Shown piece after piece: positions 7,719 to 64,000 of a DNA stretch of 64,000 nt. This stretch comes from Apostichopus japonicus (Eukaryota; Echinodermata; Holothuroidea; Aspidochirotida; Stichopodidae). How positions within the stretch are numbered: position 1 is the stretch's first letter; every line of letters begins with the position of its first letter. The stretch spans positions 1,364,501-1,428,500 of the forward strand of contig NC_092570.1 in the NCBI RefSeq assembly GCF_037975245.1. The letters are read 5' to 3'. Below the pieces are notes generated by a model. That model did no database searches. It saw nothing but the letters and a program-made list of their open reading frames with translations, and was not told the DNA's origin. Both the position numbers and the translations under genes were made by a program.

Positions 7719-8831
7719 TCATACATGATGTAGTTCTTGTTCTCTTCCTGTACAGCAGTTAAATGTACTTTTCAGAGCATTTCGATAACGAGCACCAAAT
7801 ATGTTGTAAATAACTGGATTAATACCAGAATTGAACAATGAAGGGAAACCTATTAGGAATAAATAAACTCCCCAAGCTAAACCATCGTCATCACGTTTTG
7901 CTATGACGGCGAGAATGATAGCGATATCCTGAGATAGCACTAAACATAAGAACACAGCAGAATTTACCAATACCATTATGGTCAGATTCCTTTGATTCCG
8001 TTCATGACATTTTTTCCGGATATTATCACAGTCACTGATATTCTCATTCTCTTTAAGTACTTTGATAATTTTAGTGTAGAGCATTACAACAATTAGTAAG
8101 GTAATTAAATCTAAGAAGATGACAATATAACTGGATGGTGGTACTTCAGATATTTTCCGAAAGTGAACTATCCCTTTATACAATGGTATAGAAAACAATA
8201 GGAACACAGGACAAAGCGTAACGAAAGCAACAGAAATTCCAATCGCAGTCAAGCAACATCGCTGCTTTAGATTTGAAACTGAACCTATGTGTTCCAACGG
8301 TTTACAAATAGCCTTATAACGTTCATACGCAATCAATATAACAAGGCATAAACTGATAAATTGCAGCGAATTCCAAAGTAATGATATGACTAGAACAAAC
8401 ACGTCAAAATAAGAATATTGATAACCACGCACGAATGGGATGAGTAGAGTAATCGCAGTTACGAGCAAGAGAAAAGACGTAAATAAATCAACACCTGACA
8501 ATGCTACTAGGTAAATACAGATGTCAGATTTTCGTAAGATGGGATGTCTTTTAACTGTCGTCAAAAATAAAGCATTTGATGTCAATGCAAGAAGAGATAC
8601 AATCAATAAAGCTATGCACGGCCAGATATCGACACAAAATAAGGCTATGCACGGCCAGATACCGACACAAACTTGCTCATTATATCTATGATAGCACATC
8701 AACCTATGGTTTGGATCATTCGTAAACTGAAGTCCTACGTCATAGTCCGAGTCATAACGGAGGTTATGAGATGAAGTGTTTCCATAACTTGTACTTGATG
8801 ATGCATTTGAAGAAATATTGAAGTAATTCAT
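7719..8831 (-). CDS. Intronless rhodopsin-like GPCR, paralogue 1
   Basis: A single-exon, 370-residue seven-transmembrane receptor. The ATG at 8831 (MNYFNISSNAS) is preferred because it matches the starts of the other two paralogues; an upstream in-frame ATG at 8903 would add 24 residues. Hallmarks: TM1 Asn86 (LTSNALFL), TM2 Asp115 (LSGVDLF), ERY at 170-172 ending TM3, TM7 NPVIYNIFG and a tail with paired Cys. Several N-glycosylation sequons lie in the N-terminus. Residues 55-65 and 66-76 are an exact-length duplication just before TM1. Class A is clear from the motifs. The ligand is unknown; a chemosensory role like the expanded echinoderm receptor families is inference. Confidence 0.9.
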   Translation of the reverse strand: MNYFNISSNASSSTSYGNTSSHNLRYDSDYDVGLQFTNDPNHRLMCYHRYNEQVCVGIWPCIALFCVDIWPCIALLIVSLLALTSNALFLTTVKRHPILRKSDICIYLVALSGVDLFTSFLLLVTAITLLIPFVRGYQYSYFDVFVLVISLLWNSLQFISLCLVILIAYERYKAICKPLEHIGSVSNLKQRCCLTAIGISVAFVTLCPVFLLFSIPLYKGIVHFRKISEVPPSSYIVIFLDLITLLIVVMLYTKIIKVLKENENISDCDNIRKKCHERNQRNLTIMVLVNSAVFLCLVLSQDIAIILAVIAKRDDDGLAWGVYLFLIGFPSLFNSGINPVIYNIFGARYRNALKSTFNCCTGREQELHHV

Positions 8832-8903
8832 CTTCGATAATATTAATTCGAATGTCCTCGTTCTACGTAAGACTGCTACACAAGGCTGATGCTTATGTGA
8901 CAC

Positions 8904-10545
8904 AAAATATCTGGAAGTTATAAGCAGTAGCCTATAGAAGCTGTGGAAGTGAAATGGCGTCCAAAAGTAATGCTATAATGGCCGTTAGACAACGTATGCT
9001 TAGTTTTTGCTGATCAATGGAATATTAATAACACTTATTGGATAAGACCTCTACAAAGATCGTTCGTATCAGAATGTGATAGCTGAAAGGATGAACGTTC
9101 TGTGATATGGGATACCCGTACATCGGCGATCAACAAGTTTTGATACGTAGAGCTCATCACATATTTCAGTCAACGTTTAAACTTGAAGAACATCTAAGGT
9201 AGTCACCACAAATGCACGAATCGTTGAATGGTCTACAGTAAGAATGCAGTGAAGCGAATAAAAGAACTGTAGCCTATATTCAACACATTGTGTATTTATA
9301 TGATGTATCAGGAAGACTGACAAACGCCTTATTCTAGAACTATAGCCTCTGTGTCCTGATGCAGTCTCTTGTAGACTAGATAAATGAATTTGTTCAACAT
9401 CGGGTTGACTGTCTTTCTTCGTTTGTTATTTGTACTGAATAGACTCCAAGGTACAAGAGCGCATTGGAAATATATAGATGTTTGACTTATATTGAATAAA
9501 TCTGCTTATATTATACCTTTCAATGTATAGGCACAGAAAATATTAACAACAAACCATCGTTGAAAACCATGAGACTGTTTTGACAGAGGTTATTCTTAAA
9601 ACGTAAATCCAGATTGCCTACACCTGAGAATAATAAGAGAGGTCAAGCTAATTATAAAGTTAGTATAGTCCGAGTACTGTTAGACTGAACATTATATATA
9701 GCTTTTACTTGAGAAATATCCAGAAAGGTGTTGGTCGGAGTAAAACGTCAACTACTTTTGATAGCTCTATATCTGATATTGGTGATCATACTTCCTAAAA
9801 CTAAGCATCATTTTTTTAGACATGATGTTCCTTTCAATTAACAACATAGTGGCAGTTGTTATCAATGTCTTCATGATCATGTACAGATATAGTTTCTTAG
9901 TTCCTTGTTCAGAAGTGCCAGCATCCTGTTCTTAATTTACGTGTATTGATTCATAGTGCATTATTCTTGTTTGTTTTAAACGAAATATTCATCCCGTGGG
10001 TGTTTGTAAACCTTAAGTCGGTAAGTTGAATCTGAGTGGAATTAGATCTGACGCTCAGTTGGCTGAAGTGCTCTAGCAGTTAGAGTCAGAATCGCTGAGT
10101 TGTAATAGATATGCAATTTATTATTACTGGTTTAATTTGCCATTGCATCTATCTATCGCAGTGTATGTAAATGCAGACAGTTGGAGTGAGCATTCTTTAA
10201 GCATTGTATCTTCCTAATACTTCATCCTGCAAACTTTAAGTACCCAAATGAAGCCCAGAGAACGATCTTACCAATGATGTATACAAGTTTTTATGGGGGG
10301 GGGGGGGGTTATATTGAACATCTTTCCAAACAATTCAGTTGAAACTTTGTTTTAAAAAAAATGGAAATTTGACCTTTGACCTATTGTGTAGGAATGGGGG
10401 GGGGGGCTTAATGTGAGAAACTTAAAAGGCAATTTCAAAGAAGTAGCTGTACATGACATTTGGTGTGGAGCCTTGGGACCATCATCATTATGTTTTCAGT
10501 GTCATTTTGGGTTTGCTAATTAAATATAGATTATTGGCGGGTCCA
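8904..10545. other. Intergenic, no gene seen
   Basis: AT-rich DNA with two G runs (10286-10298 and 10396-10407). No supported coding frame or RNA gene was found. Confidence 0.5.
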
Positions 10546-12935: not shown

Positions 12936-13106
12936 GCGTACAGTATACATATGTTGTATATGTTTATATGTTAATCGTACATATGTCTGTATCTGTGACT
13001 GTATCTGTGGACTGTATTGGCCGCAAATTAGGCAAGCAATAATTGTTAGGAGTGTTCAAAAAAATACTCCATTGGAGGTCTTCGCTCTCCAAATTGTTCT
13101 CAGACA

Positions 13107-14265
13107 ATCTTAATGAACACAAAAGATGACTGAATGTCCAGTGAGGTATTTTTTTTTCCAACGAGGTAATATAAACCGTTTAAGAATATTGACCAGGGTG
13201 ACCATTTTGAATATATGGCATATATGGGCCAATACAGCATACTTTAATCCTTCTATACCTATATTAGTTGCATATATCAAGTTTGAACCTAACTAGACAC
13301 CCAAACTTCTCCCGTAGCAATGTAATTACCTTCGAAAATTAAACGGGTAAGGGGCGGGGGGGGGGGGGGTCGGAGTGTTTGAAAGAGAATATAAGAAAGT
13401 ATATGATGTATAGGCTTTTGTCTCACTTGCATTTTTCTCATAGGGTCTTCTTGTTTGTACATGGTGTAATGCCTTCCAAATTGTTAAAGTTTAGAACAGT
13501 TTTTTATGACAACTAGCCTAATATATTTCAATCATACTTTCCCAAGCGTGGGCACAATTGCCTAAGCGTGGGCACAATACGGATAATATGTATATATGTG
13601 TGTGTATAGTGTACGCGGCTGCGTGCAGTATACGTTGTCTATGTTTATTTTAATTTTAATGTTATTATGTTTTTGTTAATTTTAGCCGGTAAGCAATAGG
13701 CCCTACCTACAAGTTGCTTTTCATTCTATATATCAATCTTCGTGGCATTGTTCCACTAACTTTTGAGGTGAATGTTTGTAAAACGTTTCCATGTTTGAAT
13801 TCAGAGTTCAATAACATTATTTACAATAGAAAATTTACAATAGAAATGGACGTGGAACACATTTCTGGCGTAAACATGTGTCATTTATTTTACACTTGCT
13901 TTCTATCGCTGCAACAGAAACATTTGCAGCAATGAATAAGAGAGGAAAGGGAGAGCAAAATCGTTATTAAGTTGTCGCATTCCTGCAGTAAAGAGTGCAC
14001 CGTCTTAACTACAAATTTATAAATATATACTTTGTACCTCGTAAAGTGTGTTTGGTAAAGTATGTTCTTTACTTTGAATCTTTTACCGTTGTTTAGATTT
14101 TACACCCCAATACAAAACCAGTATATCCCGCTCCAAAGGTTTGCTGTTTTGGCCCCTAATATGCCAGGTATTCAAATATGGTCACCTTTGATAAAAAAAA
14201 ATATATTGTATTTGTATTACCACCCTTGAGGAAATGAACATTCAGTCATTTTATGTGGTTAATCA
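13107..14265. mobile_element. Non-autonomous element with about 120-bp terminal inverted repeats
   Basis: The left arm (from 13107) has GATGACTGAATGT, GGTGACCATTTTGAAT and GCATATATGGGCCAA. The right arm (about 14145-14265) holds the reverse complements of the same blocks in mirrored order. The interior contains the AAGCGTGGGCACAAT doublet. No transposase is visible, and target-site duplications are not clear. Confidence 0.65.
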
Positions 14266-14906
14266 GTGGCGTATCCAGGATTTTCTGACCCGGGGGGCGC
14301 GAATTACTATTTAAGCGGAGCGCCACCATCGGTTGGCGCGCAGCGTACAAGAAAATTTCTGGTTTTGATACCCCCAGATCACCGGAAATGGCACTTCTCG
14401 AACTTGAAACTGACCAACCAGATGTACACTTTTGCCTGAGAACCAAGTATTTCCAAATGGTTTTTTTTTTCCATCCATAACCTTTTTGAAGATGGTCATC
14501 AGTCACACATCATGTTCGACCTCATCACATCTCCCGCGGATCATTGCTTTTGTAGGTGGTTCTAAGTCGCTGCCCACTATACCCGTCAGCGCCACTTTTC
14601 AAGGTTTTAAGCCCATTATTTGTTCAGAATTTGAAAATTCACGATAAATTCACTTCAAAACATACCCATAATGCAATGTTGCACAAAATTTTATCTATGG
14701 ACAATCAATACAGAAAAACCTCCTTCAACCCCAAACAGACTATAGTCAAATTTGCACGAGTAGAGGGAAGTATGATGAAGAATGTTGGTCAGGGAATTTT
14801 CGAAAATTCCGACACAGTTAATTTATTGGTGTACAAATAATAAAACCTCTTTAAGGAAATAGATATTTTCGAAACCGACACACTACACACATCGACAGTT
14901 TTGAAC

Positions 14907-15467
14907 ATGGGCGCAGATCAGTCTTAGATAATGGTGGGAACGCGAGTCTGTTCTCTGACACTATCTAAGCGGAGCGCGACCATGGGTTCGCGCGTAGCGT
15001 ACGATTTTTTTGGGTCAAATATAGCCTCCCAGATCGCCGGAAATAACACTTCCCAGACCTAATGATGCTCCCAAACCTCCTTAAGTTTGAGATTTCATGG
15101 TTTAGAAATTTAGTTTGGGGAAATACATGCATGGGCGTCTGCAGAAAAAAAAAATCAGGGGAAAAATAATCCAAGTAGACTTTTGTATACGATGGGTCTG
15201 GCGTCCTCTCCCAGAAAACAATTATAGACTGCCGCAAATGCGATTTCCGTCCTGTATTTAACAACTGTGGATAAATATAATAAAATGAGAACTGTTGCAT
15301 GTGATTTGCACAATGCTGGATCAAACTTCGCCAAAGTTCAATACAGGGGAACTTGAAATGCAGCTATTGTTCAAGACAAATTGGTCGGGACACGGTATAT
15401 CATGTCCCCACTACTGAAAAGGTTAGTGGGGACGCGTCCCGCTGTCCCCACCAGGATCTGCGCCCAT
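14907..15467. mobile_element. 561-bp element with perfect 13-bp TIR
   Basis: It starts ATGGGCGCAGATC and ends GATCTGCGCCCAT. A second copy lies at the same place in the duplicated block (19199-19757). The interior has no transposase-like frame. The superfamily is undetermined; the flanks only weakly suggest a duplication. Confidence 0.75.
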
Positions 15468-15855
15468 TGTTTGGAGGCTGTTCATTCTGGAACGCCATTT
15501 TCATGCTCACTGATATGGAGTGATATCTGCTGTTTGCTTTACAAATTCGAATAATTCGAATATTGTTAGATGCACGTCCATTCAGTACAGTGTCCTTGGG
15601 ATTTCTTGGGATTTTACCGGGCCTGATCTTAGGAAATCGGGAGTGGTCACACTCCATTTAGGTAAGTGCACGACCTCAAGACGTCACTTATACACAACCC
15701 GATCACTAGTCTGTTATCGATGAAGTGGTGTGTTGCCGGATTTTGTCAAGGTCTTGGTACTATACGGGTGAAGGTCGAGAGGGGTGGGGCGTAGGGGTTG
15801 TGGGGCGCGCGTTTTCATGCAGATGAGAACAATCTCAAGAAGTGATGGGTGTGTG

Positions 15856-15908
<53 letters not shown>
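15856..15908. repeat. (TA)n microsatellite
   Basis: Uninterrupted alternating T and A. The counterpart in copy B (about 20150-20251) is longer, which accounts for part of the length difference between the copies. Confidence 0.95.
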
Positions 15909-15910
<2 letters not shown>

Positions 15911-16445
15911 ACAATACAAGGTCAAGTATACTTAAGGGAAAGTTCATGCACTTTGTGTAAGCCGCGGTATGCATCTATTTCGTTGCATATTGTTCTATAG
16001 CGATTCATGAAGCTGTAGGCCTGCCTGTACTAAATGTCAACTTTTATCCGGGTCCGGATATTTCCCAAGTAAAGCCTAAACTCGAGACCATTTGAACCGA
16101 CGTATTTCCTGAATTCGTTAGAAATTTCTAGTTAAGTTTGTGGTTTGCGATCTACAGACCATGAACTTTAAGGTTCTGGGAATTCCAACGCATACATTGT
16201 TCCTCCCGATAGTTTCCTGTATTACTCATTTCTTAAAGAGCTCAAGTTGAAATTTTACTTATCCGAGGTGGGTAATTGCACTTTTTACGAGGAGCCGTAC
16301 AGCTTCCTTGTTTTGGTATGTATTTAAGCCATTTTTTGATTAAATAATTTTTAAACTTTTCTCAAGCGTAATTTATACATATAATTACGCCTACAGTGGA
16401 ATTTCAACCTTCCTTAGCGGGTTCGAACCTCTGGATATACAATCA

Positions 16446-16520
16446 ACGTCCATAGCCTAGTGGTTAGGGTGTTCGCATATAAAGCGGGAGGCCCGGGTTC
16501 GAATCCCGGTGGAGGCTGGA
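16446..16520 (+). other. tRNA-like sequence (tRNA pseudogene or SINE head)
   Basis: It has AGCCTAGTGGTTAGGGT (A-box/D-arm like), a plausible anticodon stem around ATATAAA, and a perfect T-arm, CCGGGTTCGAATCCCGG. The acceptor-stem halves pair poorly, so a functional tRNA is unlikely. It is followed by a short body and a TA repeat. Confidence 0.55.
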
Positions 16521-16565
16521 AGTTTCTAAAATGTTCTGGATTTTCCAACTCACTGCAATTTCAAT

Positions 16566-16571
16566 TATATA

Positions 16572-16603
<32 letters not shown>

Positions 16604-16647
16604 GATATAAATATAGATAGATATATATATATATATATAGATATATT

Positions 16648-16679
<32 letters not shown>

Positions 16680-16856
16680 GATTGATATTGAAATAAATAC
16701 ATATATATATATAGATAGATATAGATATCATCATCATCGTAATCGTCGTCGTCGTCATCGTCGTCATCGTCGTCGTCATCGTCATCGTCATCGAAGGTCA
16801 CCGTCATCGTCGTCGTCGTCATCGTCATCGTCATCGTCATCATCATCATTATAGAA
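16566..16856. repeat. Compound microsatellite: (TA/GATA)n then (ATC/GTC)n
   Basis: 16566-16727 is TA with GATA interruptions. 16728-16856 is a trinucleotide tract of ATC and GTC. Open frames across it (poly-Asp, Tyr-Ile) are simple-repeat artefacts. Confidence 0.92.
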
Positions 16857-17405
16857 GTTAAATCATGAATAAACATACACTTTACCAGGACTGTCAGCTA
16901 AACAGAGTATACCGAAACTTACTGGTATATTATAAGCCCAATGAAAGGAACATAGAATTGCGCCCATTTAAAAGACACATTGCATACATTACTCGTTGAC
17001 ACCAGTTCGAATCTCACCGCTGTCATCAATGTATAAGCCTGCATGGTGGGATGTGACATAAATAAAAAAAAATACAACACACGAAAACGTGGCAGACGTT
17101 TTGAGAGTTTCAACAAATCAAAATGTATCAACCATAAATTGTTCCAGTTGATAATAACTAAAACTCATTACGATTTTCATTTATATATTCATTTGCCTTT
17201 GTCGTTTACCTCCACTGCATTAACATAAAGTCTGTTCAAAGTATCTCTTTCGAGATCCGGCTTTAGGAATCACAAATGATTTCGAGTTGGTTTGCATCAT
17301 GTTTGATCTCTAGAGTAAGGCAAAATATGTCACCAAAAACAGAACTAGTATTGTTCGATACAGGTGACAAACGCCTACAGTGGAATTACGACCTTCCTCA
17401 CTTTC

Positions 17406-18558
17406 ATCTTAATGAACACAAAAGATGACTGAATGTCCAGTGAGGTATTTTTTTTCCAACGAGGTAATATAAACCGTTTAAGAATATTGACCAGGGTGAC
17501 CATTTTGAATATATGGCATATATGGGCCAATACAGCATACTTTAATCCTTCTATACCTATATTAGTTGCATATATCAAGTTTGAACCTAACTAGACACCC
17601 AAACTTCTCCCGTAGCAATGTAATTACCTTCGAAAATTAAACGGGTAAGGGGCGGGGGGGGGGTCGGAGTGTTTGAAAGAGAATATAAGAAAGTATATGA
17701 TGTATAGGCTTTTGTCTCACTTGCATTTTTCTCATAGGGCCTTCTTGTTTGTACATGGTGTAATGCCTTCCAAATTGTTAAATTTTAGAACAGTTTTTTT
17801 TATGACAACTAGCCTAATATATTTCAATCATACTTTCCCAAGCGTGGGCACAATTGCCTAAGCGTGGGCACAATACGGATAATATGTATATATGTGTGTG
17901 TATAGTGTACGCGGCTGCGTGCAGTATACGTTGTCTATGTTTATTTTAATTTTAATGTTATTATGTTTTTGTTAATTTTAGCCGGTAAGCAATAGGCCCT
18001 ACCTACAAGTTGTTTTTCATTCTAATTATTAATCTTCGTGGCATTGTTCCACTAATTTTGATGTGAATGTTTGTAAAACGTTTCCATGTTTGAATTCAGA
18101 GTTCAATAACATTATTTACAATAGAAAATTTATAGAAATGGACGTGGAACACATTTCTGGCGTAAACATGTGTCATTTATTTTACACTTGCTTTCTATCG
18201 CTGCAACAGAAACATTTGCAGCAATGAATAAGAGAGGAAAGGGAGAGCAAAATCGTTATTAAGTTTTCGCATTCCTGCAGTAAAGAGTGCACCGTCTTAA
18301 CTACAAATTTATAAATATATACTTTGTACCTCGTAAAGTGTGTTTGGTAAAGTATGTTCTTTACTTTGAATCTTTTACCGTTGTTTAGATTTTACACCCC
18401 AATAAAAAACCAGTATATCCCGCTCCAAAGGTTTGCTGTTTTGGCCCCTAATATGGCAGGTATTCAAATATGGTCACCTTTGATAAAAAAAAATATATAT
18501 TGTATTTGTATAACCACCCTTGAGGAAATGAACATTCAGTCATTTTATGTGGTTAATC
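17406..18558. mobile_element. Long-inverted-repeat element, copy B
   Basis: Counterpart of 13107-14265. The same arm blocks appear at 17406-17540 and, inverted, at about 18440-18558. Confidence 0.65.
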
Positions 18559-19198
18559 AGTGGCGTATCGAGGATTTTCTGACCCGGGGGGCGCGAATTA
18601 CTATCTAAGCGGAGCGCCATCATCGGTTGGCGCGCAGCGTACAAGAAAATTTCTGGTTTTGATACCCCCAGATCACCGGAAATGGCACTTCTCGTGCTTG
18701 AAACTGACCAACCAGATGTACACTTTTTGCCTGAGAACCAAGTATTTCCAAATGGTTTTTTTTCCATCCATAACCTTTTTGAAGATGGTCATCAGTCACA
18801 CGTCATGTTCGACCTCATCACATCTCCCGCGGATCATTGCTTTTGTAGGTGGTTCTAAGTCGCGGCCCACTATACCCGTCAGCTCCACTTTTCAAGGTTT
18901 TAAGCCCATTATTTGTTCAGAATTTGAAAATTCACGATAAATTCACTTCAAAACATACCCATAATGCAATGTTGCACAAAATTTCATCTATGGACAATCA
19001 ATACAGAAAAACCTCCTTCAACCCCAAACAGACTATAGTCAAATTTGCACGAGTAGAGGGAAGTATGATGAAGAATGTTGGTCAGGTAATTTTCGAAAAT
19101 TCCGACACAGTTAATTTATTGGTGTACAAATAATAAAACCTCTTTAAGGAAATAGATATTTTCGAAACCGAACACTACACACATCGACAGTTTTGAAC

Positions 19199-19757
19199 AT
19201 GGGCGCAGATCAGTCTTAGATAATGGTGGGAACGCGAGTCTGTTCTCTGACACTATCTAAGCGGAGCGCGACCATGGGTTCGCGCGTAGCGTACGATTTT
19301 TTTGGGTCAAATATAGCCTCCCAGATCGCCGGAAATAACACTTCCCAGACCTAATGATGCTCCCAAACCTCCTTAAGTTTGAGATTTCATGGTTTAGAAA
19401 TTTAGTTTGGGGAAATACATGCATGGGCGTCTGCAGAAAAAAAATCAGGGGAAAAATAATCCAAGTAGACTTTTGTATACGATGGGTCTGGCGTCCTCTC
19501 CCAGAAAACAATTATAGACTGCCGCAAATGCGATTTCCGTCCTGTATTTAACAAATGTGGATAAATATAATAAAATGAGAACTGTTGCATGTGATTTTCA
19601 CAATGCTGGATCAAACTTCGCCAAAGTTCAATACAGGGGAACTTGAAATGCAGCTATTGTTCAAGACAAATTGGTCGGGACACGGTATATCATGTCCCCA
19701 CTACTGAAAAGGTTAGTGGGGACGCGTCCCGCTGTCCCCACCAGGATCTGCGCCCAT
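19199..19757. mobile_element. TIR element, copy B
   Basis: ATGGGCGCAGATC at the left and GATCTGCGCCCAT at the right. Nearly identical to 14907-15467. Confidence 0.75.
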
Positions 19758-20146
19758 GGTTTGGAGGCTGTTCATTCTGGAACGCCATTTTCATGCTCAC
19801 TGATATGGAGTGATATCTGCTGTTTGCTTTACAAATTCGAATAATTCGAATATTGTTAGATGCATGTCCATTCAGTACAGTGTCCTTGGGATTTCTTGGG
19901 ATTTTACGGGGCCTGATCTTAGGAAATCGGGAGTGGTCACACTCCATTTAGGTAAGTGCACGACCTCAAGTCGTCACTTATACACAACCCGATCACTAGT
20001 CTTGTTATCGGTGAAGTGGTGTGTTGCCGGATTTTGTCAAGGTCTTGGTACTATACGGGCGAAGGTCGAGAGGGGTGGGGCGTAGGGGTTGTGGGGCGCG
20101 CGTTTTCATGCAGATGAGAACAATCTCAAGAAGTGATGGGTGTGTG

Positions 20147-27774: not shown

Positions 27775-30070
27775 GATTAATAGAAAATAGTCAAAGCTTT
27801 CATCCGGCAAGTGTTTCTTGAGAATGACGACGTTACACAAATTCTTCTCGCTTCTACGAACGGCTTTATCATATGGACACAGGGACTAATTCGAGTTTGT
27901 TTATATATTCGGACAAATCAGGCAATATATCGTGCTTGATGCGTTTAACGTTACATGCGAGTACATTTCGTTAATTCACATAACCAAAGTCTTGTTTTGG
28001 ACCATGTAAACGATTCATGCATTTCATGACTGTCTCTAATGTTCTTCATTATGAACGCTAACTGATATACGTGATATGCTTGTTTGATCACCAATGTGAT
28101 GAGAAGTGTGCGTTGTGACGATTCTCTCTTCCAGTTAACAGGCTACCTCATAGTACAGCGAAAGACATTTGCAGATAGGACTTAGACATTTCAAGAAACG
28201 CGGCAAAAGTAGGACAATGTCATGATCAATTTTATTTAATGGAAACACTTCGCCGATTAGTGAAAAAAAACTTACTCCCCTGTCGTACAGCCTTACCCTA
28301 TGGTTTTGCACTCAGTTACATGGCCGACTTCATATTTGCTTGATGGAAGTCTACTACAAATGAGAACCATAATCCATCCTCATTCACGAGGATACATGAA
28401 TAAATGTGACAATCATGTTGAACATGTTTCCGAATTCGACATCTGCAGCATTATCTTCCGAGTGAGTAAGACGCTTTGGCAGACAGAAGACATTTTATGA
28501 AGGATTTTCATAGCCTATATACTCAATGTTTAATTTCACGGGAACAACTGTTGACTGAAATGCGATCTTCGATGAACTTCATTCGTCTTCAAGCTTTAAG
28601 TAAATAAAGGTGCATATTCCAATTATTGTGCCTAATTGATTAATGTGCCTAATTGATATGAGTACATAGTACAATTAGGACTTCATCATTTAATAATACT
28701 ATTTCAATTATAAGTTCATATTAACCGTCTATACTGCTTGACAGGGATATTACTCTTTTTTTCTAAATCACATCTTTGGTATCCTCAGGTTTTGATCCTG
28801 TTATCTTCTCTAGGATTTGTGTCACATAGCATCATTGGTATTAAGTATTATATATTGGTATCCAGTGGAACTAAAACAAGAAAATTGACAAAGAAGAAAA
28901 ATAGCGATAATTACTGTACGTAACAATCATTGTCACAACGTGGTTTACCACATTCAAATGACTTAAAAAGTTATAAGAAACAAATCGGATTATTATAGTA
29001 AGAACTACAAGAATTGACTAGAATATTTATTTATCTAAAATGGATTACTTAAACATTTCTTTGAACACATTTTCATATCGTTGGTGGGATTATAATTATG
29101 ATCAAAATTTAACTGTATGGCAAAGCGTTTTATTTTTTAGTTTAAGTCTTTTTGCAATAACAACAAATGTATTGTTTTTGATTACAGTTAAGAGACATCC
29201 AATGTTACGAAAATCTGCCATGAGCATTTACCTGGTAGCATTGTCAGTTGTTGATTTGATTACATCAGTACTCTTTCTCTTATTTTCGATTATAAGCCTA
29301 CAATTAGGCATACAACACATTCTAGACCCGACACGTGTTCATTTTTTATGGATCCTCACTGGTGGTGTGTCTGCTATGGCGCTGTCACTATGTTGGAGTT
29401 CTTTGCAATATATAAGTCTATGCCTTGTTATATTAATTGCGTATGAACGTTATAAGGCTATTTGTAAACCGTTGGAACACATAGGTTCAGTTACAAATCT
29501 AAAGCGGCGATGTTGTTTGACTGCGATTGGAATTTCTGTTGCTCTTGTTGGTCTTTCTTTAGTTTTCGGTTTTGCCTCTTTGTATTTACTTGCCGGGATA
29601 AGTAGCTTCATAGAGAAAGTACCACCATCCAGTTATATTTTCATCTCCTCAGATTTAATTACCTTATTATTTATGGTAATACTCTACACTAAAATCATCA
29701 AAGTATTTAATGAGAATCTAAACATCAGTGACTGGGATAAAATCCGGAAACGAAATCATCAACTACAGCGGAATCTGACCATAATGGTACTGGTAAATTC
29801 TGCTGTGTTCATATTTTTAGTGCTATGTCAGGATATCGCTATCTTTCTCGCAATCATAGTTAAACGCGATGACGGTGGTTTATCTTGGAGAAATTACTTA
29901 CTCCTAATATATTTCCCTACATTGCTAAATTCTGGTATTAATCCAATTATTTACAACATTTTTGGTTCTCGTTATCGAAGTGCTCTGAAAAGTACATTGA
30001 ATTGTTGCACAGGAAGAGACAAAAACTAGAACATGGAGACATAGAACTTAGTCATGTTGTCTAACCACAC
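27775..30070. repeat. Receptor-containing duplication, copy 1
   Basis: About 1.2 kb upstream of the receptor at 29040, the receptor itself and its immediate 3' flank match 34625-36925 in the same order and orientation. Shared landmarks include TTTCATCCGGCAAGTGTTTC, TTAATGGAAACACTTCGCCG and CATTTATTTAATAATACT-like AT blocks before the ATG. Confidence 0.9.
29040..30029 (+). CDS. Intronless rhodopsin-like GPCR, paralogue 2 (truncated tail)
   Basis: A 329-residue single-exon receptor beginning MDYLNISLNTF, with sequons at N5 and N23. TM1 Asn43 (ITTNVLFL), TM2 Asp72 (LSVVDLI), ERY at 136-138, NPIIY at 301-305 and a CC pair in the tail are all present. Compared with paralogue 3, a single-base deletion near 30020 (GAGACAAAAAC against GAGACCAAAAT) gives an early stop. 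The next 33 or so bases still encode paralogue 3's tail in another frame. The usual TM3-start Cys and the TM6 CWxP box are not seen. It lies on a tandem duplication shared with 35852-36925, and is probably a chemosensory-type receptor (inference). Confidence 0.92.
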   Translation: MDYLNISLNTFSYRWWDYNYDQNLTVWQSVLFFSLSLFAITTNVLFLITVKRHPMLRKSAMSIYLVALSVVDLITSVLFLLFSIISLQLGIQHILDPTRVHFLWILTGGVSAMALSLCWSSLQYISLCLVILIAYERYKAICKPLEHIGSVTNLKRRCCLTAIGISVALVGLSLVFGFASLYLLAGISSFIEKVPPSSYIFISSDLITLLFMVILYTKIIKVFNENLNISDWDKIRKRNHQLQRNLTIMVLVNSAVFIFLVLCQDIAIFLAIIVKRDDGGLSWRNYLLLIYFPTLLNSGINPIIYNIFGSRYRSALKSTLNCCTGRDKN

Positions 30071-34624: not shown

Positions 34625-37290
34625 TCATCAACAGCTTTCATCCGGCAAGTGTTTCTTGGGTATGAGGAAGTTGCACAAATTTGTTTCTCTTCTACGAACG
34701 GATTTATCATATGGACACAGGGAGTAATTCGAGTTTGTCTATACTGTATATTCGGACACATCAGGCAATATATCGTGCTGATTACGTTTAACGTTACATG
34801 CGAGTACATTTCGTTAATTCACATAACCACAGTCTTGTTTTGGACCATGTAAACGATTCATGCATTTCATGACTGTCTCTAATGTTCTTCATTATGAACG
34901 CTAACTGATATACGTGATATGCTTGTTTGATCACCAATGTGATGAGAAGTGTGCGTTGTGACGATTCTCTCTTCCAGTTAACAGGCTATACCTCATAGTA
35001 TAGCGAAAGACATTTGCAGATAGGACTTAGACATTTCAAGAAACGCGGCAAGAGTAGGACAATGTCATGATCAATTTTATTTAATGGAAACACTTCGCCG
35101 ATTAGTGAAAAAAAAAATACTCCCCTGTCGCGTACAGCCTTACCCTATGGTTTTGCACTCAGCTACATGGCCTACTTCATATTTGCTTGATGGAAGTCTA
35201 CTGCAAATCAGAACCATAATCCATTCTCATTTACGAGGATACATGAATAAATGTGACAATCATGTTGAGCATGTTTCCAAATTCGACATCTGCAGCATTA
35301 TCTTCCGAGTGAGTATGTCGCTTTGGCAGACAAGACATTTTATGAAGGATGTGCATAGCCTTTACTCAATGCTTCATTTCACGGGAACAACTGTTGACTG
35401 AAATGCGATCTTCGATGAACTTCATTTGTCTTCAAGCTTTAAGTAAATAAAGGTGCATATTCGAATTAATGTGCGTAATTTATGGTACATAGTACAATTA
35501 GGACTTCATCATTTAATAATACTATTTCAATTATAAGTTCATATTAACCGTCTACTGCTAGACAGGGATATTACTCTTTTTTTCTAAATAATATCTTTGA
35601 TATCCTCAGCTTTTGATCCTGTTATCTTGTCAAGGATTTATGTCACATAGCATCATTGGTATTAAGGATTATTTATTGGTATTCAGTGGAACCAAAACAA
35701 GAAAATTGACAAAGAAGAAAAAATAGCGATAATTACGTAACAATCATTGTCACAACGTGGTTTACCACATTCAAATGACTTAAAAAGTTCAAATATACAA
35801 ATCAGATTTTTATAGTAAGAACTGGAAGAATTGACTTGAACATGAACTGAAATGGATTCTTTCACCTCATCACATCCTTTTGATACAGTATACCTATCTA
35901 ACTGTAGTTGTGAGTCCTTTAACGACGCAATATACGATTATGAGTATGACAGATACAGTTTTTGGTGTAGTTCAGATGAATTTACTCTAACGATAGGCCT
36001 ATGGCCATTCTTTATTTCATTGATTTTAAATCTTTTGGCAATAACAACAAATGTATTGTTTTTGATTACAGTTAAGAGACATCCAATGTTACGAAAATCT
36101 GCCATGAGCATTTACCTAGTAGCATTGTCAGTTGTTGATTTGATTACATCATTTCTCATTCTCGTATGTTCGATTATACAACTCATTTTCAAACTTAGTG
36201 ATCCAATTGTGACGTCACGGTCTGCTGTACTGCTGTCACTATGTTGGAGTTCTTTGCAATATATAAGTCTATGCCTTGTTATATTAATTGCGTATGAACG
36301 TTATAAGGCTATTTGTAAACCATTGGAACACATAGGTTCAGTTACAAATCTAAAGCGGCGATGTTGTTTGACTGCGATTGGAATTTTTGTTGCTTTTGGT
36401 GTTCTTTTTGTTGTTTTCCTATTTTCCTCTATGGAATTACTTGGCGGGGTAAGAAGCTTGGGGAAAATATGCGAAATACCACCATCCAGTTATATTTTCA
36501 TCTCCTCAGATTTAATTACCTTATTAATTGTTGTAATACTCTACACTAAAATCATCAAAGTATTTAATGAGAATCAAAACATCAGTGACTGGGATAATAT
36601 CCGTAAACGTAATCATGAACTACAGCGGAATCTGACCATAATGGTATTGGTAAATTCTGCTGTGTTCATATTTTTAGTGCTATGTCAGGATATCGCTATA
36701 TTTCTCGCCATCACAGTAAAACGCGATGACGGTGGTTTATCTTGGGAAGATTACTTACTCCTAATATTTTTCCCTTCATTGCTAAATTCTGGTATTAATC
36801 CAGTTATTTACAACATTTTTGGTTCTCGTTATCGAAGTGCTCTGAAAAGTACCGTGTTGAATTGTTGCACAGGAAGAGACCAAAATCTAGAACATGGAGA
36901 CATAGAACTTAGTCATGTTGTCTAACCACACTCTCTGTCTACATATGTATACATATACGAATATATATATATATATATATATATATAGGAAGTCATTTAC
37001 TTTAGATGTCGAACTATCTGTGCTTGGTGAACAATTTACTTTTCAAAGCAGGATATTTATTTCGAATACAAATTGTGTGTAATGTACCCCTCAAATGTCC
37101 AATTTTTAACCTAAAATATTATATTTTTAAGAAGAAACTTCAAGAAGAAATTCCTAATGTAAACGAATTTTTATTTAGATTTAAATGTTTGCTTCAAGGC
37201 GAAGAATATTTAAAAAAGTATACATTTCATGCACCCATTTTCTAGACTTCTTTATATAATGCTTTTAAAAATGCAATATCTTGTTTTCGT
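34625..37290. repeat. Receptor-containing duplication, copy 2
   Basis: Matches 27775-30070 and, after the receptor, the LINE tail at 30854-31140, which resumes here at 36987. The block between the receptor and the LINE tail is therefore shorter in this copy. Confidence 0.88.
35852..36925 (+). CDS. Intronless rhodopsin-like GPCR, paralogue 3
   Basis: A 357-residue single-exon receptor. It has an acidic, aromatic-rich N-terminus, TM1 Asn67, TM2 Asp96, ERY at 149-151, NPVIY at 316-320 and a full tail ending IELSHVV. TM regions 1-3 and 5-7 are almost identical to paralogue 2. The N-terminus, the TM2-TM3 loop and the TM4-TM5 loop differ most, as expected for ligand-facing parts. A Cys in the second extracellular loop (KICEIPPSSY) is absent from paralogues 1 and 2. 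No Cys stands at the usual TM3 start position. Ligand unknown. Confidence 0.93.
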   Translation: MDSFTSSHPFDTVYLSNCSCESFNDAIYDYEYDRYSFWCSSDEFTLTIGLWPFFISLILNLLAITTNVLFLITVKRHPMLRKSAMSIYLVALSVVDLITSFLILVCSIIQLIFKLSDPIVTSRSAVLLSLCWSSLQYISLCLVILIAYERYKAICKPLEHIGSVTNLKRRCCLTAIGIFVAFGVLFVVFLFSSMELLGGVRSLGKICEIPPSSYIFISSDLITLLIVVILYTKIIKVFNENQNISDWDNIRKRNHELQRNLTIMVLVNSAVFIFLVLCQDIAIFLAITVKRDDGGLSWEDYLLLIFFPSLLNSGINPVIYNIFGSRYRSALKSTVLNCCTGRDQNLEHGDIELSHVV

Positions 37291-48044: not shown

Positions 48045-49426
48045 TCACTGGTTCTGCTCTTTGCACCATTGAACAAAATGTTTACAATTATTTGTCACTA
48101 TATTGTAGTCATTTTTCCCGCCAATTTTTGATCTTGCGGTCTGTATCAAGAAATCCGGGTCGATGGCTATGTCGGCTCCCACAAGTAAAACCTGGGGCGG
48201 TGCTTTTATCCACTCTTCGACCACACCCTTCTCGTATGTACTGCGGATTAACCTCAACTGCTTTGCATCTGAATCAACGGATATGACTATGGCATGACAT
48301 CTTGGATGTAAAAGGGATCCGGTTAACACCACGTGATCTCCGCTCTGGAGTTCTTTCAGCTTCACCGTTTTGTCTTCCCGCTTGACAAACTTCTGAATCA
48401 AGCTACCGAACGACGATCCAGCTGACGTATTGTTGAACTTCCCCATGGCAACATGAAATTTGTGGCCGTCTTTGAAACACTGAACAGAGAAAGTAACTTG
48501 AACCTCCGAATCTTTAAAGATCTTTATTACGTATTCCCTCAGGCTGTTGTTTTCTGTTTTCGACACATCAAATTCTCCGTTTTCTTTAAGACTGACCAGA
48601 AGCTTTTCACAGAAATCGTCGTCAACACGATTTTTGGATAGATCAAAACCGTTCCTCCCATTGCTTAGATCAAGAATAATGCTGGTCTTGTTTATTTCTA
48701 CTAGGGCACCCACTGCTTTCACTTCACGTAATTCGCTGACAGAGCTTTCTGTATTTGGGCTTTTACAGACAGTCCACGATTCATGATTTACCAATCGGCT
48801 AAGGGTGTTTGTAAACGGCACGCCGACTAACCACCAGTTTCGGAAATATTCATCGGAACCGCACTTACAGTATCTGGCAAGGCACTGAAATTCAAATAAG
48901 TTTGCTACCTGCGGACAACCGTCGCACCAAGCAAACGCTCTAGCTTTCACCAATTCTGTGGGATCACAACTGGCGTACGTCACAACCTTTGCATTCTTTA
49001 GCTCAGAAACGTCGAGCTTAGCACGGCTAATCGTAACTTCACTTGGACCAGTTCGGCGGAACGAAACGACCGACAGGGTGGACTCAGAGTGAATGGTTTC
49101 AACGATGGCCTCATGGTGACCCGACAGAGTTTCCTCACAGTCAGAAAGAACTAGGTGATCCCCTTCTTTTAACGTTTCTAATGTGAACTGTTCTGTATTT
49201 CTTTCTCTGGGTGGGTGGTCAAACTGGGCATTGTGGAAGTAGAATATATTCTCTTCAAACAGAAGGCTATTTCCATCAACCTTTGAAACATCTTCTACGT
49301 ATCGCTCAAGTAACCATTCCTTGCCACATTTCTCGCACAAAACCCCCAACAGCTCGCCACCGTTTACATATCTTTTGTATCTGTTGGCGTTGCCACAAAC
49401 ACATTTTCTGAACTTTTCTTTGCTAT
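48045..49426 (-). CDS. Zinc-ribbon plus tandem LRAT-like exon, probably spliced to NAPE-PLD
   Basis: One 460-codon exon after a good acceptor (AG at 49428-49427, behind TTTTTATTACCTCTAC). The first in-frame Met is about 300 codons in, so the reading frame must begin in an upstream exon. The first two bases complete a codon begun in phase 1, which the donor in the last NAPE-PLD exon (49689) provides, giving EEKDSKEKFRKCVCGN. CVCGN ... CEKCGKEWL repeats the four-Cys motif of the paralogue at 43020. The N-terminal LRAT-like unit starts GDHLVLSD, retains GHHEAIV and has a shortened Cys region. The C-terminal unit has GDHVVLTG, HPRCHAIVI and YNIVTNNCKHFVQWCK, with the nucleophile Cys codon at 48086-48084. 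It is a lipid-directed acyltransferase or phospholipase by family; the activity is inferred. Confidence 0.85.
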
Positions 49427-49463
49427 CTGTAGAGGTAATAAAAAAGGTAAGTCACTTCAGATA

Positions 49464-49469
49464 TTTATT
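49464..49469 (-). terminator. AATAAA polyadenylation signal in the NAPE-PLD/LRAT intron
   Basis: Minus-strand AATAAA about 210 nt after the short-form stop codon and about 36 nt before the LRAT-exon acceptor. Its use would end a NAPE-PLD-only mRNA; splicing would remove it. Confidence 0.5.
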
Positions 49470-49678
49470 TTTTAAAGTTTTATAAAGCACAGAGGGCATT
49501 TGGCACGATTAAGCACATTAATGTGATTAACACTCAAGGATGCATTCAAAGATGCACTTGCCATTTACACCGTAGAATATACACAATCTGTATTCTACGG
49601 GACGGGTGGTCCTTATCGGCTATCAAAATACATTACAATTAAAAATTCAGCTGAGAGTCATCCTTTTTTAAGAATAAT

Positions 49679-52600
49679 TCAATTTTTACCTTTCTCTTCC
49701 TTCTCAGCGTAATCGATAGTCGTCATCAAATCTTCCTCCAAGGTTACAAAATCGTTTTTATCGAGGCGGTGTTCTTTCATTGCTTTTTTCAAGTCTGTGA
49801 TTGGTTGATCCACTCCCTGGAAAACAAAGACGTCCGAAGAACTTGAAGAGCAGAATTCATAATTTAAATGCTTAACCTCCAAGGAGATAAAAATTTTTCC
49901 TCTATTTTGGATTTTCTGTTTGTTTATAGATAAAGCAAATTAATAGAAGGTCAGACGTTTCGGTCCTAGCAAGATCTATTCTCAGCGGCTTAATGACCAA
50001 CATGTACACTGCAGTAGAAAATGTTGTAGCAAAGAGGAGGGACATTTGCTAGTAGCCTGGGTGACAAACAATAATATGTGGAAAGGGGAGAGGCGGGGGG
50101 GGGGGGGTTAGCTGTGACTCAATATTCCCTGTATTCCTTCATAATCCTACTCACCGTGATTTATTTCCCTTTTTGTACAGAGTCAATAAACATATTGTTG
50201 AGGTGGTAATGGTATGATAAGGGGTTTGTAATAACTCCCGGGGTCTATTGATCCAATTTCATAAGCTAACAAAGAAACTGACAAACAAGGGAAAGAAAAA
50301 CAAAACTAGTATAGGTTACCTATGAGAGGTTAAACCTGCATTCCTTACCTCAGTGCTAAGCTTAAAAGTGCGCCAGTGAATCCCGATCGACTTCCTTGCT
50401 TGGAGGTGTTGGTGAATTTTCACGGCTTCCTCAGGGTTTATGTGTTGGCATTTCATCATTTGCCTGTGACACAAAGAATGCATGAAAAAGTCACAAAAAG
50501 TCTTTCCAAGAAAGAAAAAAAGGGTGAGGGGGGATTCTAAAACCAACAAAAAGCAAAGAACGGTTATTTCAAAGAAACGTTGCTATTTGGTCACAATTTC
50601 TGATAAAATTTGTCAAACCAATTAAAGCAAGATGGCAAATAAAACTAAAGAACGAAGAAAATCTAACCCGCCTTCTTGTATTGACTAACCCTAACCAGAA
50701 ATTGATATCTTTCCAACCTGAAACTCACTGATTGCCACAACCGGTCCATAAAATCCTTCAGTAAGGTGAGAAAACTAGGCATTTTAACATGATGATGCAA
50801 GTTTAATAGACTTCTAGAACATTACAAAACAGCCACAATCAACTTGTCCTGGCTACCGAACACCACTGAGTGTACAGAATCTGTTAAAGTCTGGTCAATA
50901 AAATTGAAGGATAGTTGTACTATCTTGCAATACTAGATGGCTATATTTTAACTACTATACCATATTACGTCATATAAACTTATTCAGGCAGAAAGTTAAC
51001 AAATCAAAAAGATATTGTAGGAGGCCCACATCCTTTTGTATCTGAAACTTTTGGTGGTTTCAGTCATTTTAATAGGACCTGGGATGTGGCTAATGATAAA
51101 CTTTAATCATGATAGCCCAGCTTTTTATGGGATCATACAAAGTAATTAAGAGGTTAGCCCTCACATACAGAATGCATTTTGTTTACTTCCCCATTTGTGA
51201 ATCTCAAAGAAATCTTATTCACTCAAGCAGATTAAAACTGAAAGCAGCTGAGTCACTCAGGGAAATTATTACATACATCACTACATCATCAGGAGATCAT
51301 TACACACATCATTACATCATTACATCGCTGTATCATCAATAGATCATTACACACATCATTATATAATTACATCATCACATCACTACATCATCAGGAGATC
51401 ATTACACATTACCCAAGGTGATCATTACATACCCTAGTCTGGGGCAATCGAATGTGTGAAGAAAATACTGATGTGAGCTCATTCATGATGTACAAGTTAC
51501 ACTACATACAGTGAGATAATTCCTGTTGTAAACACCCAGCCAGTGTTTACAGAATGTGAAGTCATTACCCTCATGGTTTGATGAAGAGTAACATCAACCA
51601 AGGAAAGAATGATCATGTATTAAACACCTAAGGTTTGACCGTTTCACTTGGGTCTTTTCTAAGGAACCGTTGCTAGGGAAGTACACGGAATGTGTGGCTG
51701 TGTAATGGTAGTTATATCGTTGGCTGTATAAAGGTAGTGTTTAATAAACCATCACCTTGGTTCATATGCTCCGATTGGAAGTAACGCCACATCTACTCTT
51801 CCAAACCTCTCACAGATATCGGTAAAGATCTCCTCTTGGTACCCTGTGTCACCCGCAAAGAAGACGGTGAACCTCTCGCTCTTTACGATCCACGATCCCC
51901 AGAGGGAGGTGTACCAATCATGAGGACCTCTCGCACTCCAGTGCTTGGCTGGGGTGAAGTATAACATCATGCCACACGCCGTCGATTGCCCCCACCACGT
52001 GCATTCCTTGACAACATCCTCTTTACAACCCCATTCCACAAATTTCTTCTTGAGACCCATTGGGACAAACCACTGTATGGCTGATGCTGACTTGAGAGCT
52101 GCCAGTTTCTTCACACTTGCTTTGTCCAAATGGTCGTAATGATTGTGACTTATTAACACAATGTCAATGTCAATTTTGAGTTTGGTCAAAGCTTCGGCGT
52201 CGAGAGCCGGCTTCCGGTATCGCCGATACCCTAAGACATTAGTCATACCGACTGTATCGCTGAACACCGGGTCTGTTAGGATATTCTTTCCTTCCATTTG
52301 TATCAGTAGAGAAGCATGGCCTATCCACAGAACCTGAACTTTATCTCGTGGAGGACTTTGTAATTGGCTGATTTGGTCATCGTTGAGATCTTCTACTACC
52401 TTCCGCTTCAGAGAAGATGGAGTCACTGCTGGTTCTCCAGCCTCTGGGTTACCATTATCACTCGGAGGCTGCATTTCCATACTCTCATCTCTAGGAAGTC
52501 CCGATTCCACAGTATCATCTGAACTTTGACCCTTTTAACAATGGAAAACACAAAAGATACATTTTATTAAAAGAGTATACATTTTTATAGATAAACTATA

Positions 52601-54589
52601 ATCTCAGAATCTGTGTGTTAAACTACACCGGTTAGTACTGGGAAATACTACATAGCGTTCATATTAAATGTTCATTGAACTGGTTTCCTGACTGAATCTG
52701 ATGGTACTGTAAGTGGAGGGAGAGGAGGATTTGGAGGAGGAGGAGGAGGAGGAGGAGGAGGAGGAGGTGGTGGAGGAGGAGGGGGAGGAGGTGGAGGAGG
52801 AGGAGGAGAAGGTGGAGGAGGAGGAAAGTGGACTAGTTATGATATGCAACCGGCTACATTGCTACATGTTATTTTGGCATGTCGATAATTACATCTAAAC
52901 TCTGCTTGGTAATCATGAACTGGAAGTAAGGAATATTGGATAATACCAACAAGACAATTTACTGTTCATCCATAAAACAAAAGAGTGTTTTAGAAATGAG
53001 TGTATCATACTTAACTTTTTTCAACAGTTACTTTAGAAGATGTTTCTGTTACTTTAAAACCTTTGCACTGTGTAAGTATCCTGTATGTAGCACTAGAGCC
53101 ATTTCAACTTATCAACATCTTCATGTATCCATGACAACACATACATCGCATTTGATTACTGCACCCACTAATAACCTCATGTCCCACCGTGATGCATGTA
53201 GTGTATTAACATAGTTCTAATTTGCATAATACCTCCATGTCACCAGTACTTTATGTTACTTTGACTGTGCATATAATACATCAGTACACCTCCTAAGTTC
53301 CTAACAGACCACACGTGTATTTGTTCTCTCTTGTGCTTATAGTTGTGTTAGTATAGCAAAGCCCCGGTGAAGACAAGACAATGCACTTCTCTGAAAGTGT
53401 CATACATTCCCATGGAAATGGAAATCAATGCAGTACATCATGACCTTGAGCTTATATGTATTAACCCACAGAGCATGCAATGTAGTATATTTAAACAAAC
53501 ATCATGCACAAAGAAACGACTGATGTTGGTAATCTGACCTAGTTTTGAATGAGGTGTAACAAAAGTGTTAAACACCACCATCGATCCCAGAAAATACAGA
53601 CACAGCTTTCAATCATCAGTAAATAGACACTAGTGTACAGTCAGTACATGCAGCTACGGTCAATACCAACAACACAGTGTACATAGCAGTGATGGACATC
53701 TCAGGTCCAGATAAAAGATAACAAGGTTTCACGTTTCATTACTGTCTGCATTTTGTAGCGACAAGAAAAATTTCACTTGCAAGCAATAGAGAGTTAAGTT
53801 TTTGCAGAGAGCGGCACGCAGTTTGGGGCGAGTCTTCAATGCCTTTAAGGATTTGATTAACAATTTCTATCAATGAATGATCAAAATCACTCAACTGTAT
53901 TCTAATTTTAATATGTGTAGTTCCTCAGAAAGGTAATGATCTCAAAATGTTTTTTGTTCTGTGCCTACGCAACCTACAATTGGGCAGAATTTGACCACAA
54001 AATGTCTGCCTTGTCAATTTCTTTTCATACCCCTAAAATGACAGATTCGTCGATAAGCTAACTCAGTGTAGTATTAAATATATGTACATCCATTGGCTTT
54101 GGATGCTGTTTGCTATGCTCTGAGCCTCTAAGCTCAGACAGGTCAGGTCTCAGACAGCAGTGGTATTATATTGAGGTAATTTTGGTTATTTTAGGGAGTA
54201 AGAATTCCAAATGCTGGGGGGAGGATGTTGAAAGCTTATAAAAACACAATTTGATCAACATAAACTTGAAAAGGATTAAAACTCATCAAATATGTAACTC
54301 TGCTTGACTGCCAAAAGTTTAGGTTACCTGCTTTATCATTAGTAAAGTTTGAAGGTGCATCAATTACGAAGGTGCATCAATTATGAAGCCTTTACTATAT
54401 CTAAATTATACTTACCTTATAAAGGTATGCACTCAACATTGCCGAAACATTTTGGCCATTTATTTTAGATGGATCAAAAATTTTAAATTGCCATCTAGCA
54501 GGATTGTGGTAACTTTTTCCCATGAAAGTATCCTGGATCTGCGGCACAATCGAGGACTCCTCATGTCTGTTTCCATCTGGTGACGCCAT
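49679..54589 (-). CDS. NAPEPLD: N-acyl-phosphatidylethanolamine phospholipase D (NAPE-PLD)
   Basis: Four exons join in frame: 54589-54416, 52531-51756, 50463-50349 and 49816-49679, giving 400 residues. The ATG at 54589 has an ACCATGG context. The metallo-beta-lactamase fold is clear: WIGHASLLI, then HNHYDH at residues 187-192 (the HxHxDH zinc box), PAKHW (His255), FAGDTGY (Asp286), PIGAYEPR, NPEEAVKIH and the final metal ligand in IGIHW (His346). The enzyme is a membrane-associated zinc phosphodiesterase that releases N-acylethanolamines from NAPE. The length equals that expected for the family. The last exon ends GKN-stop at 49679 but also holds a GT donor at 49689-49688 that can splice to the LRAT-like exon at 49426. 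An upstream coding exon at 55011 is possible. Confidence 0.93.
51268..51415. repeat. (ATCATTACA)-like microsatellite in a NAPE-PLD intron
   Basis: Many copies of ATCATTACACACATCATTAC and ATCACTACATCATCAGGAGA variants. Confidence 0.8.
52718..52828. repeat. (GGA)n purine microsatellite in a NAPE-PLD intron
   Basis: An almost pure GGA/GGT trinucleotide tract just upstream of exon 52531 in transcript order. Poly-Glu and poly-Ser frames across it are artefacts. Confidence 0.95.
53512..53855. repeat. Dispersed repeat, copy of 38277-38640
   Basis: Same landmarks in the same orientation, with several small indels. Lies in the first NAPE-PLD intron. Confidence 0.8.
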
Positions 54590-55011: not shown

Positions 55012-55571
55012 GGCGCCGAATGGAATTACTTATTAGCAATGCCAATAGAACCAGGCTAGCCTAATTTACATACATTAGACCTAGCCTAAGCCTTTGTAAA
55101 CCGTTTGAGTGATGCCTGTACCATCCAGACGCGACAATACAACAACAGTTGGAGGCAGTACAAACTTCTTTCCGTAAACTTTTTCTACTTCTAAATCTGT
55201 GAGCATATTTATGACTACAGTCTTGATATTCTGACCATAAAAAGTTGCAGAAATATGTTGAATGGTAAGAAATGAAGAAAGAGAAAAATACTACCTATAT
55301 ACCTACCAACACTTTATTCGGGAGAAGACGTAATCTATTGCGCAATCAGTGGAAATTCCCTTTTGGGAAGACGTACGTCATATTAATTGAACTACTTCAA
55401 TTGGTTATCTAGAGTTGTGCAAGTCAAAGTTCGTTCTATTAGACGATCAACAGGGTTTATCGAAGGCGATAAAATCTGGTCAATGATAAACCAGGCTCAT
55501 CGACCGATTAATCCAACCGAGACTGATAAACCTCGCATTTCCATAAACATATGTTTCTCACTCGATACACC

Positions 55572-56617
55572 CAGGGGCGTAGCGGGGGTTTTTGTTGGAT
55601 TTTTTTGTGGATATTTTGATTTGCCGACGGATCTGGAAGTGGTGACTGAAATGGGGGAGGGGTCTAAGGGGAGGGGGTCCCCCTCCCCTTTGGAAAATTT
55701 TTAGTTTTGAAACGTCCTTAGATGCAGTCTGGTGCATACTTTAAGTCAAATTTGATTTGCCGACCGATTTGGAAGTGGTGACTGAAATGGGGGAGGGGTC
55801 TTAGGGGAGGGGGTCTACCCCTCCCCTTTGGAAAATTTTTAGTTTTGAAACGCCCTTAGATGCAATCTGGTGCATATTTTAAGTCAAATTTGATTTGCCG
55901 ACGGATCTGGAAGTGGTGACTGAAATGGGGGAGGGGTCTAAGGGGATTAGGTGTCCCCTACCCTTTTGGAAAATTTTTAGTTTTTGAAACGTCCTTAGAT
56001 GCAATCTGGTTCATATTTTAAGTCAAATTTGATTTGCCGACGGATCTGGAAGTGGTGACTGAAATGGGGGAGGGGTCTAAGGGTAGGGGGTCTACCCCTC
56101 CCCTTTGGAAAATTTTTAGTTTTGAAACGCCCTTAGATGCAATCTGGTGCATATTTTAAGTCAAATTTGATTTGCCGACGGATCTGGAAGTGGTGACTGA
56201 AATGGGGGAGGGGTCTAAGGGGATTAGGTGTCCCCTACCCTTTTGGAAAATTTTTAGTTTTTGAAACGTCCTTAGATGCAATCTGGTTCATATTTTAAGT
56301 CAAATTTGATTTGCCGACGGATCTGGAAGTGGTGACTGAAATGGGGGAGGGGTCTAAGGGTAGGGGGTCTACCCCTCCCCTTTGGAAAATTTTTAGTTTT
56401 GAAACGTCCTTAGATGCAATCTGGTGCATATTTTAAGTCAAATTTGGCACGGAAGAAGCTCCCGTTCTCCTTTTCTCTATTCAGCTTTCCTTCTTTCTTC
56501 CCCTTCCGCTCTCTTCACCTTTTCTCCTTTTGCCGACAGACCCAAAATTTGCCGACAGCGACCAAATTATTGGGGGGGGTGTGACACCCCCCACACCCCC
56601 CGCTCGCTACGCCCCTG
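55572..56617. mobile_element. hAT-type non-autonomous element with 8-bp target-site duplication
   Basis: It starts CAGGGGCGTAGC and ends GCTACGCCCCTG. The flanks are GATACACC (55564-55571) and GATACACC (56618-56625). Perfect ends, CA...TG termini and an exact 8-bp duplication fit the hAT superfamily. The interior is mostly a 138-bp tandem repeat (about 55600-56430), and no transposase frame is present. Confidence 0.92.
55605..56435. repeat. About 138-bp tandem repeat with alternating unit types
   Basis: Six copies of a unit with TTTGATTTGCCGACGGATCT, GGAAGTGGTGACTGAAATGG, a G-rich/C-rich hairpin and GGAAAATTTTTAGTTTT. Copies 3 and 5 share GGGGATTAGGTGTCCCC; copies 4 and 6 share GGGTAGGGGGTCTACCCC. 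The higher-order period is therefore about 276 bp. Confidence 0.88.
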
Positions 56618-59950: not shown

Positions 59951-59960
59951 TCTTCAAAAC

Positions 59961-64000
<4,040 letters not shown>

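Follow-up and report, generated by a model that had tools for sequence, protein, structure and literature searches.

The 64,000-nt stretch of Apostichopus japonicus DNA analysed here (hereafter the window) raises the question of how a long coding exon without a start codon could be translated. This exon lies on the minus strand (49426-48045) and encodes a zinc-ribbon-like CxC..CxxC module, a degenerate-looking LRAT-like domain 1 and an LRAT-like domain 2, followed by a stop. Its frame of 459 residues cannot extend far upstream, as a stop lies about 25 nt before the acceptor, and the only Met is residue 327, with none in the 326 codons before it; thus an upstream coding exon is needed. Pfam LRAT (PF04970) was recognised with an E-value of 4.6e-7 (30.6 bits against a cut-off of 24.3), covering only profile positions 81-116 of 120, and an NCBIfam scan added nothing specific. 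The four Cys columns of the CxC/CxxC module are invariant in all six aligned members. The acceptor is strong (7.16 bits, phase 1) according to splice-site matrices with generic values, not trained on the A. japonicus genome, as for all splice scores below; sites scoring at least as high occur at 0.078 per kb on both strands of the window. The sequence-only reading of this locus had described an LRAT-like exon with no usable Met for about 300 codons and a strong phase-1 acceptor, and both points were borne out.

Upstream of this exon on the same strand is a gene for NAPE-PLD. Exon 1 (54589-54416) begins with ATG, ends in phase 0, has no Pfam match on its own and joins the following exon in frame. 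Exon 2 (52531-51756), which ends in phase 2, contains the metallo-beta-lactamase core (Lactamase_B_2, E-value 1.1e-24; PDB 4qn9, E-value 6.8e-40). Exon 3 (50463-50349) ends in phase 0 and has a homologous exon in three paralogues; the open reading frame containing it matched the tail of Lactamase_B_2 with an E-value of 0.0015, which is under the family cut-off. Exon 4, as far as a proposed phase-1 donor (49816-49690), could be aligned with 4qn9. When these four exons are joined to the LRAT-like exon through a proposed intron of 263 nt, every intron has GT..AG borders and the result is 858 codons including the stop, with no internal stop, as had been claimed before. The proposed fusion product would have 857 residues.

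The four-exon protein matched human NAPE-PLD (4qn9) with an E-value of 8.5e-61 over 260 aligned residues, reaching chain residue 379. By sequence, the metallo-beta-lactamase fold with its HxHxDH motif is present, and like in the human enzyme the later His and Asp ligands are all kept: residues His253, Asp284 and His343 of 4qn9, which we take to be the remaining metal ligands, as well as His321, are conserved in the alignment. The NAPE-PLD half is genuine and complete; NAPE hydrolysis is its predicted activity. Unlike human NAPE-PLD, the protein may carry a C-terminal extension of 460 residues.

Whether this extension is always made depends on how exon 4 ends. Directly after the proposed donor GT, within 49689-49679, we found an in-frame TGA (49681-49679), three codons beyond the donor, which was absent from the earlier description. 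If exon 4 is left unspliced, it ends at this stop after 45 codons, and an AATAAA (49469-49464) lies 212 nt beyond the TGA, within the proposed intron; thus a plain NAPE-PLD is fully encoded. A single AATAAA in an AT-rich stretch of such length can be due to chance, and we regard it as a possible poly(A) signal. The plain protein would have 400 residues, a normal length compared with the 393 of the aligned PDB chain. A Lactamase_B_2 family search revealed four NAPE-PLD loci in the genome including that of the window, and the other three all end as plain NAPE-PLD in the same exon, with stops at about 36 to 41 codons from the exon start. The last exons of these three share an HGE motif near the C-terminus that is missing from the window copy. 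This absence would fit a gene whose old C-terminus has become less constrained, that is, an obligatory fusion in which the TGA is a dead relic within an intron and the locus makes nothing but the 857-residue protein. However, the stop yields a protein of normal length and a possible poly(A) signal lies beyond it, and we consider an obligatory fusion very unlikely. With a normal stop and a possible poly(A) signal still in place, the fusion is probably not the only product. The earlier claim of a NAPE-PLD to LRAT-like fusion therefore stands as a plausible in-frame transcript, but probably not as the sole output of the locus.

The phase-1 GT donor at 49690/49689 on which that claim relied is indeed present and in frame, but its score is only moderate (3.91 bits; the three other donors of the gene score 8.7 for exon 1, then 3.0 and 6.34), although it is the only one of three GTs in exon 4 with a positive score. 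Phase-1 donor-like sites were also found in the last exons of all three paralogous loci (4.73, 4.73 and 2.84 bits), none of them known to be spliced, and two of the three outscore the window donor. They arise because the HGE codons contain a GT. The donor alone proves little and is not above chance, since paralogue last exons hold such sites, two of them better; donor strength was dropped as proof of fusion after this control.

That donor-like sites are common in NAPE-PLD last exons, together with the retained stop and AATAAA and the plain structure of the other three loci, agrees with a different explanation, in which NAPE-PLD and the LRAT-like exon belong to two separate neighbouring genes and the latter has its own small first coding exon without recognisable homology, either within the NAPE-PLD introns or upstream. 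The window itself contains a tandem paralogue of the LRAT-like exon, LRAT2 (43039-41620, minus strand; 35-36% identical; Pfam LRAT E-value 6.5e-9), which has its own ATG at 43020, shortly after an acceptor ending at 43040; therefore, unfused forms may exist. Two further relatives, L015 and L002, also have a Met close to the start of the unit and agree with two genes in the same way. Two separate genes are the main rival to the reading favoured below, though less likely than it, and the few candidates for a separate first exon (see below) weigh against them.

It is also conceivable that the LRAT-like exon is an orphan of a broken duplication that yields no protein, or that an assembly slip hides its start. 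The absence of an ATG fits either case, and the DNA of the exon 4 to LRAT-like junction had one match genome-wide (671,581,487 bases in 35 contigs), in one assembly. On the other hand, 459 codons have stayed intact despite long divergence: LRAT2 (36% identical) is the nearest relative found, followed by a pair of contig C7 genes (both 31%), and comparison with the nearest gave a dN of 0.67 with dS saturated. Divergence of this extent without gaining a stop indicates that the exon is not a fresh dead copy. HiFi reads underlying the contigs, provided that the assembly is that of PMC10344927, further disfavour an assembly slip. We therefore regard an orphan or a slip as very improbable.

A clue to what precedes such exons comes from relatives elsewhere in the genome. 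Upstream regions were surveyed for six zinc-ribbon/LRAT loci outside the window, leaving aside two C15 loci and the remainder of the relatives list, and Death-like exons were found upstream in four of them (two on C7 and two on C11), with a Pfam-significant Death domain in one of these four. The significant case is C11:28260053-28263738, where a Death-domain exon (L065, Pfam E-value 7.4e-12) is followed by a phase-matched zinc-ribbon/LRAT-like exon (L048). In the other C11 relative, L042, the first exon showed a weak DED match (0.029) and a better match to TRIP12 (0.0075), both under the cut-off, and the second exon had no match to a Death family in Pfam. Upstream of the C7 copies are two exons that are conserved between the copies and appear Death-like by eye, followed by a linker exon; the donors of the three are in phases 1, 1 and 0, with acceptors that fit by inspection. 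In Pfam, one of the two Death-like exons had no match, and the other had only weak matches under the cut-off, to HisG_C (0.0046) and a bacterial Death-like family (0.097). No Death-like exon was found upstream of the C13 and C16 loci, the latter within 4.1 kb. A search of the literature for an LRAT domain combined with a death domain in invertebrates gave no match.

Several features of these relatives recur in the window. Like the C7 and C11 genes with Death-like exons, the window exon has the CxC..CxxC module and LRAT-like domain 1, and it enters in phase 1 as in both C11 loci, whose LRAT-like exons come after exons with phase-1 ends (the acceptor phases were judged by eye). Of the C7 twins, only one has a Met as its first codon, and their dN/dS over the LRAT-like exon is 0.5, indicating only mild constraint. 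Since the start-less state is found in relatives that have upstream exons, the question becomes which partner the window copy uses. Unlike in the C7 and C11 genes, the place of the Death-like exons is occupied by NAPE-PLD in the window.

We considered whether a Death-like exon close by is the true partner and rejected this, as none was found in the window with Pfam, in frames of at least 55 aa, or with a model of moderate sensitivity built from the C7 and C11 exons. When the C7 and C11 sets were tested against each other, one of two exons was recovered each way (E-values 5.8e-5 and 0.0025), while the other C11 exon reached 1.5 and the other C7 exon was absent among the matches listed, and the true Death domain of L065 reached only 0.14. 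The scores that this model gave L033, L035 and L042 follow from its construction. The minus strand upstream of the window's two LRAT-like exons has 30 stop-to-stop frames of 55 aa or longer. Pfam gave no family above its cut-off for 29 of them, among which the NAPE-PLD exon 3 frame mentioned above scored best, and the thirtieth is NAPE-PLD exon 2. For two separate genes, this lack of a Death-like or otherwise Pfam-recognisable upstream exon among frames of that length, with a Death-like model of moderate sensitivity, is unfavourable, and so is the scarcity of other ATG-led phase-1 donors. From the acceptor to position 59960, which borders the next long minus-strand frame (59961-60521), a phase-1 donor of at least 2.7 bits terminates just four ATG-led frames: that of NAPE-PLD exon 4, a wrong frame of exon 2, and two others 9-10 kb away. 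Exon 4 is the nearest of the four and the sole one in a known coding frame. These scans, which together covered frames of at least 55 aa, donors of at least 2.7 bits and single-exon starts, favour NAPE-PLD as the partner; the single genomic match of the junction DNA agrees with this, and the fusion is plausible as the most economical source of an initiator for the start-less exon.

Taken together, we favour, with a probability of about one half, a composite last exon from which both a plain NAPE-PLD and a read-through-spliced NAPE-PLD–zinc-ribbon–LRAT–LRAT protein would be produced. When the AATAAA is used, exon 4 would continue to its own TGA and give the plain enzyme. When RNA polymerase reads through, the phase-1 donor could be used and exon 4 spliced to the start-less exon, giving a protein in the order NAPE-PLD, short charged linker, zinc-ribbon-like module and two LRAT-like domains; under this reading both RNAs would be made. 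The LRAT-like unit may have derived from the family found behind Death-like exons and lost these exons afterwards, and NAPE-PLD may bring LRAT-like domain 2 to membranes. If the joined RNA exists, the enzyme would have an architecture that we did not find named in literature titles or abstract openings, and lipid-mediator production would be linked to a family with members behind Death-like exons in other parts of this genome. It would also represent two genes fusing through splicing that bypasses a stop, caught with the stop still present.

What the added domains could do was judged from their catalytic residues. PLAAT/HRASLS enzymes are described in PMC4624172 as having a Cys-His-His or Cys-His-Asn triad and, in all HRASLS members except HRASLS5, a C-terminal hydrophobic membrane segment. 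In domain 1 of the window protein, the His before AIV is lost and the Cys is uncertain; this domain looks degenerate and catalytically dead. Domain 2 resembles PLAAT/HRASLS in having a His in front of AIV and the NCKHF Cys; compared with the PLAAT motif NCEHFV, its NCKHFV retains the Cys and HFV, with Glu replaced by Lys. Unlike these enzymes, the window protein has two LRAT-like domains and a zinc-ribbon-like module, and by eye no C-terminal hydrophobic tail, as the sequence stops six residues past NCKHFVQW. A further difference is likely at the third triad position, where PLAAT has His or Asn. By hand alignment, LIR of domain 2 corresponds to the VIH seen both in C11 domain 1 and in the PLAAT-like locus L001, although the program placed the VIH of L001 otherwise; Arg follows LI or VI in all six aligned domain-2-type sequences, and it is likely that Arg stands in for the third triad residue. 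The match to PLAAT structures (2lkt and 7zot) covered 29 residues with an E-value of 0.14.

It had been proposed that one polypeptide may both make and cleave NAPE, which is weakly supported. Considering the lost His of domain 1, the likely Arg of domain 2 and the short PLAAT match, NAPE synthesis is not the likeliest activity of the fusion product, and domain 2 would at most be a Cys-His domain of an atypical kind, acting in acyl transfer or as a hydrolase. A more elaborate scheme, which we consider unlikely, is that NAPE-PLD replaced a Death-like partner, that the unusual Cys-His domain 2 synthesises the substrate, NAPE or a similar N-acyl phospholipid, which the fused NAPE-PLD then cleaves, and that alternative 3' ends switch between the plain and the coupled enzyme.

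Some additional observations were made in the genome and in the window. At C7:19519115-19603013, a cluster of LRAT-like genes has a further NAPE-PLD gene some 20 kb away on the same strand; thus the genome shows NAPE-PLD next to LRAT-like genes in two places. At C7:1348700-1360850, the Death-like/LRAT gene pair is adjoined by a satellite-like array whose repeat period is about 283 nt. Within the window, a tandem repeat with a unit of about 138 nt (55534-56446) directly precedes the NAPE-PLD gene. In the region of about 13100-20140, tblastn showed matches spaced by about 4.29 kb, suggesting a tandem duplication. Three long single-exon frames (7719-8972 on the minus strand, 29022-30029 and 35846-36925 on the plus strand) appear by eye to encode related rhodopsin-type receptors.
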